Assembly: GCA_021812345.1 (NCBI GenBank) | Contig: JAKANP010000008.1 | Coordinates: forward strand, 1-34,884 | Origin: a bacterium | GTDB taxonomy: Bacteria > Patescibacteriota > Minisyncoccia > UBA6257 > JAGOQP01 | Length of the DNA: 34,884 nt | Direction: 5' to 3' | Part shown: piece after piece, positions 3,342 to 6,539 of the stretch | How the letters are laid out: every line of letters starts with the position of its first letter | How positions within the stretch are numbered: position 1 is the first letter of the stretch | Translations under genes and position numbers: made by a program | The notes under the pieces: generated by a model | What the model was told of the DNA's origin: nothing | Database searches by the model: none | The model's input: the letters and a program-made list of their open reading frames with translations, nothing else

Positions 3342-3956
3342 ATGGCAACAAACAATGCGGAGCTAATGCGACAAGCCAGAGAGTCGCTCAAAGGAAAATG
3401 GTGGCTGGCAGCAGAAGTGACAATTATTTATATAATTATCACCGGCGTCGTTCATCTGATTCCAAAAATAGGTCCTTTTGCGGGATTAATTATCGGAGGT
3501 CCGGTAGTTTTGGGATTTATGATGTTTTTTTTAGAATTATCAAGAAATAAAAATCCAAAAATAGATACTATTTTTTACGGCTTCAAAAAAACATTTTTTG
3601 GAGTTTCTTTATTGGCTTATCTTTTAATGGTTCTGTTTATTTTTCTCTGGTCTCTGCTTTTGATAGTTCCGGGTATTATCGCCGCTTTTTCATATTCAAT
3701 GACATTTTTTATAATTTCGGAAAATGACAAAATGAAAGCCACCGAAGCAATGAAGTTGAGCAAAAAAATGATGAACGGAAATAAATGGAAATATTTTTGT
3801 CTTCAACTTAGATTTATCGGGTGGGGAATATTGAGCTTAATCACTTTAGGAATAGGTCTTATATGGTTTATCCCTTACATTCAAACGACCAATGCCAAGT
3901 TTTATGACGATATAAAAAATAACAATCCGGAAAATAAAAAAAATCAAATTGCTTGA
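3342..3956 (+). CDS. DUF975-like integral membrane protein
   Basis: A 204-residue polytopic membrane protein. It opens with a short amphipathic segment, NNAELMRQARESLKGKWW, which is the hallmark start of the DUF975 family. About five to six membrane segments follow, including a pair around residues 20-60 rich in Gly/Pro and a long one near residues 88-125 with LLLIVPGIIAAFSYSM. The SENDKMKATEAMKLSKKMM helix before the last membrane pair is also typical. The family has no firm biochemical role. It stands alone on the plus strand and is closed by a strong terminator. No Shine-Dalgarno precedes the ATG. Confidence 0.75.
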   Translation: MATNNAELMRQARESLKGKWWLAAEVTIIYIIITGVVHLIPKIGPFAGLIIGGPVVLGFMMFFLELSRNKNPKIDTIFYGFKKTFFGVSLLAYLLMVLFIFLWSLLLIVPGIIAAFSYSMTFFIISENDKMKATEAMKLSKKMMNGNKWKYFCLQLRFIGWGILSLITLGIGLIWFIPYIQTTNAKFYDDIKNNNPENKKNQIA

Positions 3957-4015: not shown

Positions 4016-4065
4016 TTTGTTTAAATAAGAGTGGGGATATCCTAAACTTTGCGCGAAACCATTTT

Positions 4066-4180
4066 GAAGGGAGCTAGCCCGCCTCCGCTTCGCTCCGGCG
4101 GGGCGCTCAGGCGCGGCGGGGTTCCTCCCCTCAATCCCCTACTCCCACCACGCCCTCGCTTCTGGCATTTCGGCGAAAAA
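4066..4180. repeat. GC-rich inserted element with hairpins
   Basis: A block of about 110 nt, far richer in GC than its surroundings, with nested inverted segments such as CCGCCTCCGCTTCGCTCCGG and GGCGCTCAGGCGC. It has no start signals and its open frames look random, so it is best read as a non-coding dispersed repeat or element remnant at the border between the DUF975-like gene and the accessory island. Only one copy is in this window. Confidence 0.45.
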
Positions 4181-4201
4181 ATCCAGCGGCTATCAAACAA
4201 A

Positions 4202-4244
4202 GTATCTCGCCACGTTATTTTATCAAAAGATGACGGCGAGATAC
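4202..4244 (-). terminator. Putative terminator of the HEPN-like gene
   Basis: GTATCTCGCC (4202-4211) pairs perfectly with GGCGAGATAC (4235-4244) across a 23-nt loop. On the minus strand it begins 9 nt after the stop codon at 4253 and is followed by TTTGTTTG. The long loop is unusual for an intrinsic terminator. Confidence 0.5.
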
Positions 4245-4252
4245 AAATTAAT

Positions 4253-4795
4253 TTATTTTCTAACCTGCTCGAAAAATATATCAACCTCGCGCTCTCTTTC
4301 TGGTAAAAAACCATCATAATTGAGAGCGCCAATTGAATAATTTTTAGCCAAATCGTCAATCATCTGCTTGATATATTTTTCTAACTCATCAATAAACGAG
4401 TTTAAAACTTGTACCGAAACTTTTGTATCTATTTCTTCAAACCGCATATCGGCGTGGAGCAGATATTTATTTATCACAGTTTCCAGTTTTCCGTTCTTCC
4501 AAGTTTCAAATAATTCGCCGTGCTTTTTTCTTAAACTATCGTTTTTCAGGTGTCGGACGACAAACTGGAAACTGTGGGCATTGTTGTCGCGGTCAAAAAA
4601 TTTTCGGCAGTCGCTTAACTGCGAAACTATATAGCCATACCAAAACAACGCCACAACATCGTTATGCTCGGTGAGGTGCGTATTCTTCATCCCATCCTCA
4701 AATTTTTTGAAAACGACTCGCCGAGTTAAAAGATTGAGTAAGAGATTTTGGAAAAATGTAAATTCATTATTTAAGACCATGCAATTATTCTGCAT
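4253..4795 (-). CDS. Hypothetical protein, possibly HEPN/AbiU2-like
   Basis: A 180-residue, mostly helical soluble protein. I chose the ATG at 4795, which sits 1 nt after the stop of the protease gene (TAA-A-ATG, translational coupling), over an in-frame ATG at 4819 that would overlap that gene. Middle helices contain DVVALFWYGYIVSQLSDCRKF and a conserved-looking NKYLLHAD near residue 110. That resembles the R/N-x4-6-H motif and helical layout of the HEPN_AbiU2 group, known from phage abortive infection. This is a weak motif match, not a proven assignment. It is the last gene of a four-gene minus-strand cluster with a HicBA-like pair and a protease, which favours a defence or stress role. Confidence 0.6.
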   Translation of the reverse strand: MQNNCMVLNNEFTFFQNLLLNLLTRRVVFKKFEDGMKNTHLTEHNDVVALFWYGYIVSQLSDCRKFFDRDNNAHSFQFVVRHLKNDSLRKKHGELFETWKNGKLETVINKYLLHADMRFEEIDTKVSVQVLNSFIDELEKYIKQMIDDLAKNYSIGALNYDGFLPEREREVDIFFEQVRK

Positions 4796-4796
4796 T

Positions 4797-5696
4797 TTAG
4801 TTTGGTGTCCAAGTAACATTATTTATGTTTTGGATTTTTCCTTCGTTGGCGTAATTGCCTAAACTAATCCAAGTTGGGACACCCAATAAACACAAACCAT
4901 TCTCATCTTTTGAAAAAGCTACTCCGCCAGAATTACCACTGTCCATTTTAGCAGAAACATAATAATCATCATTTGGCAAAGGATATTGCGATTGCGCGAC
5001 GCTGGCAATGATACCATCACTAACAGTCCTAAGACCCGTTCCAGAAATCTTATCAGTTGTATATGCTGGATATCCCACGACAATAACTGGAGAACCTTGA
5101 GCTATTGACGAGGGACAATATCTAAGTGTGGAAATTTTATAATCTAATTTTTCTTCAGGATATGTAGCGTTGGCAGGTGTCGGAATTAAAGCTATTACAG
5201 CAATATCCGTGTATGAGTTCCAAGACTTATTATTTTCTAAATTTAAATCATACGGTATCCAATCGGTGGGTTTTTGTGGGTTAGCTACAAAAAATCTGCA
5301 AAAATACTGGTCTTGTACAACATGTTGGTTAGTAAGAACATAATTTTGATTATCAAACTGCCATAACGATCCACTACCAGCGGTTGACCAGTGAATATTG
5401 CCATTATTCGATGACCAACAAACGACATTGCCGACGCCCGATAGATAAGGCGCGAGTTCTTCCGTGCTGATTTGTGAAGAATTGAAATGCTGAACTGGTT
5501 CAGAATTGTTTCCGACTGATTGAGATGACTGAGTTGAATTTTCTCCCTGTATCAAATTTTGTGTGAATACATCAGATTTATTTGAAAACAACATATATCC
5601 GCCAATAAAAATCAAAGCTAGCGCCAAAATGATAACGGCCGGGTTATCAAAATTAAAATCATTTTTTGAGTCCCTATTATCCATAAATTTATTCAA
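4797..5696 (-). CDS. Membrane-anchored trypsin-like serine protease
   Basis: This 299-residue protein has a short cytoplasmic tail, one membrane helix at residues 20-37 (AVIILALALIFIGGYMLF), a Ser/Gln/Asn-rich linker to about residue 75, and an extracytoplasmic chymotrypsin-fold domain. The catalytic triad is visible: His125 in LTNQHVVQD, Asp164 in SYTDIAVIAL and Ser256 in MDSGNSGGVAF. No PDZ domain follows, unlike DegP/HtrA, so it is closer to stand-alone trypsin-like proteases. It sits between the HicA-like gene (12 nt upstream) and the HEPN-like gene (1 nt downstream), probably one transcript. An alternative in-frame ATG at residue 5 is possible. Confidence 0.85.
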   Translation of the reverse strand: MNKFMDNRDSKNDFNFDNPAVIILALALIFIGGYMLFSNKSDVFTQNLIQGENSTQSSQSVGNNSEPVQHFNSSQISTEELAPYLSGVGNVVCWSSNNGNIHWSTAGSGSLWQFDNQNYVLTNQHVVQDQYFCRFFVANPQKPTDWIPYDLNLENNKSWNSYTDIAVIALIPTPANATYPEEKLDYKISTLRYCPSSIAQGSPVIVVGYPAYTTDKISGTGLRTVSDGIIASVAQSQYPLPNDDYYVSAKMDSGNSGGVAFSKDENGLCLLGVPTWISLGNYANEGKIQNINNVTWTPN

Positions 5697-5708
5697 AATA
5701 GTTTTTTA

Positions 5709-5945
5709 TTAATCTTCCCCAATCCATTCTTTTTTCGAAATGCCCGACTGGCGGATAATGCTTTTAAATACACGGGGGTCTAATGATCTACTGGCGTGAA
5801 ACGGAATGCAAACCTGATGCTGAACACCATTATAATGACCGACGTAAAACATATGACTTCCTCGCGTATGTGTATGTAAAAAATTATACGTTTTTAGAAA
5901 TCGCACAACATCTTCTGCTGTCCAGTTAAAAATTCCTCGCGTCAT
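5709..5945 (-). CDS. hicA: HicA-like toxin (type II toxin-antitoxin mRNA interferase)
   Basis: A 78-residue protein of normal length for the YcfA/HicA family, a double-stranded-RNA-binding-like fold that cleaves mRNA. Key features are the catalytic-type His31 in RGSHMFYV, the strand HQVCIPFHASRSLDPRVF, and the C-terminal helix IIRQSGISKKEW, which matches the usual ending (I..agls.eef). It follows the candidate antitoxin gene by 28 nt on the same strand, in the hicB-hicA order. The usual GTL after the second histidine is replaced by DPR, so activity is likely but not certain. No Shine-Dalgarno was identified. Confidence 0.8.
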   Translation of the reverse strand: MTRGIFNWTAEDVVRFLKTYNFLHTHTRGSHMFYVGHYNGVQHQVCIPFHASRSLDPRVFKSIIRQSGISKKEWIGED

Positions 5946-5973
5946 ACAAATAAAATTAACTCCCGCTTATTAT

Positions 5974-6318
5974 TTATGCGGACATTAAAGCTCCTGACGA
6001 TAACATCTCTCTAATATTTAATCTGCCGAAAGTAAAAATATTTTCTGATTTTTTAATACGATGTTCTTGCAAATCATCCCACATTTCTTCGTATTCAAAA
6101 TCACTTTTTTGATTCAAAATTATAGGACGTGCCTTAATTTTCCGCGCTGCCTCCACATATCCAGAAAGTGCTTCAAATAAAAGCAGTGTTGCCTCCTGAG
6201 GACTATCTCCAACTTCAACGATATTAAACTCCAGCCCGACTGCATACCATTTTCTATTTTCGCGGAAGATAATGTATCGAACCGATCCTTTTTGTAAACT
6301 GTTTTTATATTTTACCAT
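5974..6318 (-). CDS. hicB: HicB-like antitoxin
   Basis: A 114-residue protein whose N-terminal half has the HicB partial RNase H-like pattern: strands RYIIFRENRKWYAVGLEFN, then VEVGDSPQEATLLLFEALSGYVEAA, matching the family rule of a strand pair, G(D/T)(S/T)xxEA and a long helix. The C-terminal part (residues 65-114) is not a clear ribbon-helix-helix or helix-turn-helix domain. It is assigned mainly on position, directly upstream of the HicA-like toxin on the same strand, and on this sequence pattern. By analogy it should neutralise HicA and repress its own promoter; no operator was seen. Confidence 0.65.
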   Translation of the reverse strand: MVKYKNSLQKGSVRYIIFRENRKWYAVGLEFNIVEVGDSPQEATLLLFEALSGYVEAARKIKARPIILNQKSDFEYEEMWDDLQEHRIKKSENIFTFGRLNIREMLSSGALMSA

Positions 6319-6382
6319 GTTAAAATATCATATCATATTTTTAAAAAAATCAAACTCTTGTTATGACCCGGAAAAAATTTAA

Positions 6383-6468
6383 ATAATTGGTGGACCCGAA
6401 GGGAATCCCTGCCCGCCAGCAGGCAGGGAACCCACCTTCACAACATCCCGATAATTTTGGTGGACCCG
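6383..6468. repeat. Direct repeats and hairpin abutting the tRNA-Ala 3' end (att-like)
   Basis: Two near-identical copies of ataatt(tt)ggtggacccg lie at 6383-6398 and 6451-6468; the second ends exactly against the tRNA discriminator base at 6469. Between them are nested inverted repeats: CCCTGCC / GGCAGGG inside GGTGG / CCACC. The tRNA 3' end itself looks partly duplicated (GGTCCAC followed by GGGTCCACCA on the minus strand). This resembles the outcome of integration at a tRNA 3' end next to the accessory genes, though no integrase gene is present. Confidence 0.5.
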
Positions 6469-6539
6469 TGGACCTAAGGAGAATCGAACTCCTGCCTCCA
6501 CAATGCGAATGTGGCGTCATACCACTAGACCATAGGCCC
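6469..6539 (-). tRNA. tRNA-Ala, anticodon CGC
   Basis: The 71-nt minus-strand sequence folds as a full cloverleaf. The acceptor stem GGGCCTA / TAGGTCC contains the G3-U70 wobble that marks alanine tRNAs. The anticodon stem CCACA / TGTGG encloses the loop TTCGCAT, giving anticodon CGC for GCG codons. The T arm is AGGAG-TTCGATT-CTCCT, and A73 is the discriminator. CCA is not encoded directly after A73; an ACCA occurs only 8 nt further on. Confidence 0.92.

Follow-up and report, generated by a model that had tools for sequence, protein, structure and literature searches.

Genomic islands at tRNA-gene hotspots are among the closest described counterparts of the locus studied here, and as in those islands the content directly 3' of the tRNA varies across congeners; unlike them, the locus has neither an integrase nor a flanking att pair. 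Its genes resemble parts of other known systems. With HicAB type II modules it shares a HicA domain with Gly-Ser-His, a small partner gene that lies directly upstream and is always adjacent, and remote HicB profile similarity in the partner protein, but the antitoxin is too divergent for the Pfam HicB models and its gene comes first. Its protease has the N-terminal membrane helix and the complete His-Asp-Ser triad of HtrA/DegS-like proteases but no matched PDZ domain, and belongs to a Patescibacteria-type family that occurs beside serine recombinases and once in a viral contig. The last protein is predicted to be all-helical, as are AbiU2-type HEPN proteins (PF18734; PMC3710099), and its KFFD...S and N-x4-H-x-D motifs align with AbiU2 members from the same order; in contrast to these it has Ile/Leu for Arg, falls below the Pfam threshold and is known from three genomes. 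Finally, a short, dispersed GC palindrome that also occurs inside a coding gene recalls REP and Rickettsia-type palindromic elements (GTAG/CGTC repeats, PMC3733652), from which it differs in its frequent placement within the D-arm or T-loop of a broken tRNA copy that adjoins an intact tRNA of the same type. Patescibacteria is not among the phyla named in the results of that palindromic-repeat survey (PMC3733652).

The window, by which we mean the whole stretch of DNA analysed (34,884 nt), comes from a Patescibacteria-type genome of 725 kb in 27 contigs, with Candidatus Colwellbacteria among the relatives found by search. Four minus-strand ORFs of 114, 78, 295 and ~180 aa (5974-6318, 5709-5945, 4797-5684, 4253-4819) lie downstream of tRNA-Ala(CGC), spaced by 28, 24 and ~1 nt, which bears out the four close same-strand genes of the first-pass annotation. 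The site is bordered by a tRNA-binding-domain gene on one side and a conserved zinc-ribbon/znuABC block on the other. A promoter search at the patch gave nothing that stands out above chance. The features are:

3342..3956, plus strand: DUF975 membrane protein gene, absent from the site in both congeners
4035..4252, no strand: flank common to a Ca. Colwellbacteria contig, interrupted by the GC-rich block
about 4066..4150, no strand: GC-rich block inserted in the flank, absent from L017
4253..4819 (likely start 4795), minus strand: remote AbiU2-type HEPN protein of ~180 aa, by profile-profile match
4797..5684, minus strand: trypsin-like protease of 295 aa, PF13365 3e-13, triad H121/D160/S252
5709..5945, minus strand: HicA toxin of 78 aa with intact GSH motif, PF07927, PDB HicA-type chain
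5974..6318, minus strand: divergent HicB-like antitoxin of 114 aa, adjoins hicA in 12/12, profile-profile match
6387..6447, minus strand: tRNA 3'-half remnant (T-arm, acceptor strand, CCA) with T-loop palindrome, the att-like repeat
6407..6427, no strand: GC-rich palindrome CCTGCCTGCTGGCGGGCAGGG held in the remnant T-loop GTTC-G-ATTC, with GTTC on one side and ATTC on the other
6445..6461, no strand: inverted-repeat arm downstream of the tRNA, ACCAAAATTATCGGGAT on the minus strand
6468..6539, minus strand: intact tRNA-Ala(CGC), RF00005 66 bits
6540..6557, no strand: inverted-repeat arm upstream of the tRNA, ATCCGCGATAACTTTGGT on the minus strand

Genomes were compared at one per species only. 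Among members of the genus, G024 lacks the island: its tRNA-Ala is separated by ~175 bp from the conserved zinc-ribbon gene, which znuABC accompanies. The same tRNA-Ala site of G077 is filled by a metal/arsenic island (L019:6412-11356) with genes for ArsR, thioredoxin, cation efflux, OsmC, a chromate transporter and an ArsP-type protein. Another tRNA-3'-like remnant is seen at the G077 site, at about 6290-6330 of L019. Relative to these congeners the insert in the window takes in the DUF975 gene as well. The accessory island beside a tRNA that had been proposed from the first reading is therefore upheld, and since three congeners carry three different contents at one site we regard the site as an insertion hotspot. 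Our main reading, to which we assign a probability of roughly three in four, is that unrelated cargo was assembled at this hotspot and that the tRNA-side repeats are older debris of it. The hotspot directly downstream of tRNA-Ala(CGC) would collect unrelated mobile cargo, which in this genome would be a HicB-HicA pair, a membrane-anchored trypsin-like protease and an AbiU2-type HEPN gene. The gene families, their failure to recur as a set, the three states of the site and the tRNA remnant are demonstrated by the comparisons below; the biochemical roles proposed for these products, and the order of events, are inferred.

HicA scored 35.4 bits against PF07927 (cut-off 27). Its Gly-Ser-His motif is invariant among relatives, and H31, which corresponds to the catalytic His, is invariant in the alignment. 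The 114 aa partner gave no match to the Pfam HicB models. A nine-member profile built on it matched the order's own HicB_lk_antitox members at 86% with a score of 35.2 in profile-profile comparison, where the best of 60 column-shuffled control profiles scored 17.3; this supersedes a comparison with one E. coli HicB sequence that gave no signal. The HicBA-like pair of the first-pass annotation is thus confirmed, with HicA over the Pfam cut-off and a divergent HicB as partner by profile-profile score. The gene hicB is present in 12 of the 200 order genomes and in none of the other family members, and hicA follows it directly in all 12 loci; a search of viral contigs gave no hicB relatives. Stop codons occur in several of the copies, which fits pairs in decay. 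In four of its 12 loci (Ala, Val, Leu, Ala) the pair follows a tRNA of the same strand at a distance of at most 400 bp, as compared with none of 23 protease loci, a difference with a Fisher p of 0.009 in a small sample. HicA would cleave mRNA once HicB is lost or degraded, so that the patch would stay in the genome.

The membrane trypsin-like protease was likewise borne out. The protein passes the Trypsin_2 cut-off, its closest solved chains in the PDB are DegS/HtrA, and the triad residues His121, Asp160 and Ser252 are invariant columns of the alignment; one N-terminal membrane helix was read from the sequence by eye. It may work on the outside of the membrane, with surface or envelope proteins as its targets. 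Serine recombinase genes (PF00239/PF07508) adjoin two of its three nearest relatives (L035:2-922, L037:2010-2954), and one relative was found in a viral contig.

The gene of the last protein probably starts at the ATG at 4795, one base past the protease stop codon, rather than at 4819, because relatives begin at about the corresponding place. No credible Pfam, NCBIfam or PADLOC family was found for this protein, and the search of G000 with PF18734, at the curated cut-off for HEPN_AbiU2, gave no match. Profile comparison with HEPN/AbiU2, which the first-pass annotation had suggested as a check, did give a remote match, though one below the Pfam threshold: a three-member profile reached 80%, a score of 39.3 and an E-value of 1.4e-5 (hhalign) against AbiU2 members of the order, where 60 column-shuffled profiles and the reversed profile scored at most 18.9. 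The protein carries the motif N117-x4-H122-A-D, which reads I/L-N-K-x-x-L-H-A-D. All three known sequences retain N-x4-H and have Ile/Leu where the Arg of Rx4-6H is expected, which makes the RNase label doubtful; of the HEPN-like RNase that had been proposed, the likeness to AbiU2 stands and the catalytic activity is in question. Some HEPN domains without the motif have been suggested to be non-catalytic RNA binders (PMC3710099). With its Arg gone, the protein may bind RNA or be a weak or dead RNase. AlphaFold models made with and without AbiU2 sequences were all-helical (pLDDT 64 and 59), without significant PDB fold match, both being too weak for fold matching, and a PDB sequence search with the profile returned chance matches only.

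The HEPN gene occurs in two of the 200 order genomes and in one further contig (Ca. Colwellbacteria); 380 phylum genomes, phage and plasmid records and viral contigs held no relatives beyond these three. The protein is 88% identical to the copy in the Colwellbacteria contig and only 63% to that of the congener. DNA identity between the window and the Colwellbacteria contig is 87% across the gene and beyond its end, whereas the NUDIX protein is only 39% identical, from which we conclude that the HEPN gene moved recently; it would be a horizontally mobile gene that travels by itself. The homologue in G024 adjoins two zinc-ribbon genes (L020:1958-2698 and 734-1948), one of whose products has a weak SLATT_1 match (E 0.002). 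By eye, other AbiU2-type HEPN genes of the order (L058, L059, L060, L063) adjoin DNA methyltransferase or restriction-like genes. Identity to the flank of the Colwellbacteria contig is 87% over 4151-4766, which comprises HEPN gene and flank, and 74% over 4035-4091. The GC-rich repeat that had been placed at the far border of the island does exist as a block at ~4066-4150, but it forms no island boundary: as it is absent from the flank's nearest relative, it is an insertion in the flank.

The first-pass annotation had proposed that the four genes could be one defence or stress module, to be given up if their order did not recur. Such a module, in which HicBA would guard the operon and an invader or a stress signal would be the target of its protease and HEPN RNase, would account for genes that are all on the same strand with gaps of 1-28 nt, and elsewhere in the order AbiU2-kind HEPN proteins do adjoin restriction-type genes. 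The four-gene order, however, was found nowhere else. Protease and HEPN genes are missing from all 11 hicB loci beyond the window, as are hicBA and HEPN from the surroundings of the 23 other protease loci; PADLOC reported no defence system and matches to the protease domain only, and the Rx4-6H motif of the HEPN protein is without its Arg. Since the gene order does not recur, the single-module proposal is refuted, and we hold it to be highly improbable. A smaller unit made up of protease and HEPN gene alone, where the protease would activate or release the HEPN protein and hicBA would be a separate neighbour, is also rather unlikely. The stop and start codons ~1 nt apart would be compatible with translational coupling and a joint function, and the HEPN copy of the Colwellbacteria contig ends at the contig edge, before its upstream gene, which could be a protease; on the other hand, the congener HEPN gene follows zinc-ribbon genes with no protease, HEPN is missing from the 23 other protease loci, and the two products would lie on opposite sides of the membrane, the protease domain outside by prediction and the HEPN protein inside. 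Assembly of unrelated cargo at a hotspot is the reading we prefer.

On the tRNA side of the hotspot, inverted repeats of 17-18 nt stand on either side of the intact tRNA-Ala, and the folding energy of the region is -84.1 kcal/mol (z = -5.6); an Rfam search over the island found nothing credible besides the tRNA. The exact 12-mer TTGGTGGACCCG was found at 6387 and 6457 only in the region scanned. The att-like repeats of the earlier description are therefore real as a pair, but TTGGTGGACCCG does not bracket the island, as both copies are on the same side of the genes, and a search of the far end of the patch gave no copy. The att-like repeat is a piece of the 3' half of a broken tRNA that carries the palindrome. 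A classical integrative element, inserted at the 3' end of the tRNA and with TTGGTGGACCCG for its att core, is consequently a very unlikely explanation of the patch, even though the patch sits directly downstream of the tRNA and the 12-bp exact repeat includes tRNA-end sequence: the copies are 70 bp apart on one side, the far end has none, an integrase gene is absent, and a tRNA 3'-half remnant, like those seen beside other tRNAs in other genomes, accounts for the repeat. The remnant would be the 3' half of a broken tRNA-Ala, left beside the intact, inverted-repeat-flanked gene that would now do the work.

The same anatomy was found beside Glu, Pro, Arg, Gly, Phe, Thr and Val tRNAs of the order. 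The pattern GTTC-palindrome-ATTC occurs in 12 places in the 200 order genomes, 10 of which keep the T-loop arrangement, and all 10 follow a tRNA of the same strand at a distance of 9-75 bp (Arg, Thr, Glu, Phe in two genomes, Gly in two, Ala, and Pro twice in one genome). Since the T-loop pattern came from a tRNA and favours tRNA contexts, a sample of palindrome cores was drawn without tRNA selection. The exact 20-bp core is present in 77 of the 200 genomes with up to 24 copies, the reversed-pattern control giving zero, and a tRNA lies within 300 bp of 32 of 85 distinct cores. Similarity between flank and neighbouring tRNA exceeded the 99th percentile of 483 random flanks in seven of these 32 and had p < 0.05 in 13, all 13 in sense orientation.

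Other arrangements were seen as well. In G077 the palindrome lies in frame within a conserved gene (L019:5776-6120, ...EEADLPAGRQVIAG...), like Rickettsia-type palindromic elements. Many tRNAs have, downstream of a terminator-like hairpin, an antisense T-arm-like stretch (e.g. GGATTCGAACC) that is followed by a recurring GC-rich repeat (GGGGTCGGG...), as at L268, L270, L277 and L278 in G109 and at L227, L243, L250 and L255 in G000. A limited search of the open-licence literature gave no description of such tRNA-side repeats.

At some loci, reading by eye places an intact tRNA between the halves of a broken one of the same type. In G109 a broken outer tRNA-Arg(CCT), GTCCTCGTAGTTCAA...TAGAACAAGTC-palindrome-CGTCCTAAGG...GAGGACGC, encloses an inverted-repeat-flanked tRNA-Arg(CCT), and similar, partly incomplete cases concern Glu(CTC), Ala(CGC) and Ser (G109), Thr(CGT) (G135), Val (G118) and Asp (G117). 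Loci with an intact tRNA between or beside broken halves are L166/L278, L097, L271 and L275 (G109), L132 (G135), L174 (G118) and L122 (G117). Junctions of nested tRNAs often have inverted repeats, and palindromes were seen in the D-arm, anticodon arm or T-loop of the halves. Inverted repeats around tRNAs scored at least 11 in 11% of 181 tRNAs, a set enriched for palindrome loci, versus 3.2% of permuted pairs; a terminal motif TA(A/T)(C/T)CGGG common to inverted repeats is, in a biased sample, suggestive only.

It is possible, though on present evidence doubtful, that inverted-repeat-flanked tRNAs insert into and replace resident tRNAs of the same isoacceptor, mostly at the anticodon loop, and that the old halves are left on either side and then receive the palindrome in their D-arm or T-loop; the window's tRNA-Ala with its att-like repeat would be an eroded case. 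We regard the broken-half remnants as demonstrated but keep such insertion as a lead only, because two formal tests gave no clear excess. Rejoining the outer halves with ARAGORN yielded a tRNA in five real cases versus eight and seven permuted ones, a comparison confounded by neighbouring tRNAs, and two of the five real cases (Gln, Arg) gave the inner tRNA's own anticodon. A strict T-arm scan of all tRNAs of two genomes gave few matches and no clear excess, with criteria that were too strict. The main rival is that the repeats are nothing else than slippage or tandem duplication of tRNA 3' halves, with palindromes taken up later and no insertion of tRNA into tRNA. This is a serious possibility, if short of probable: at L098 (G017, tRNA-Phe) a second copy repeats ~90 bp of tRNA and flank almost exactly, save the palindrome. 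Duplication is at odds with L278/L166, L132, L097, L174 and L122, where outer-tRNA halves stand on both sides of the intact tRNA, and with the inverted repeats often found at the junctions of those nested loci.

We regard the four genes as ordinary hotspot cargo, with one rare, degenerate HEPN family among them, and advise against listing them as a defence module. The tRNA-side repeats are of more interest and deserve a survey of their own. Should the nested arrangement hold true, it would reveal how essential tRNA genes are replaced in streamlined bacteria, and would account for a class of repeats next to tRNAs that can readily be taken for att sites. The palindrome in the loops of dead tRNAs would offer a handle on the spread of such elements in genomes that are known mainly from metagenomes.
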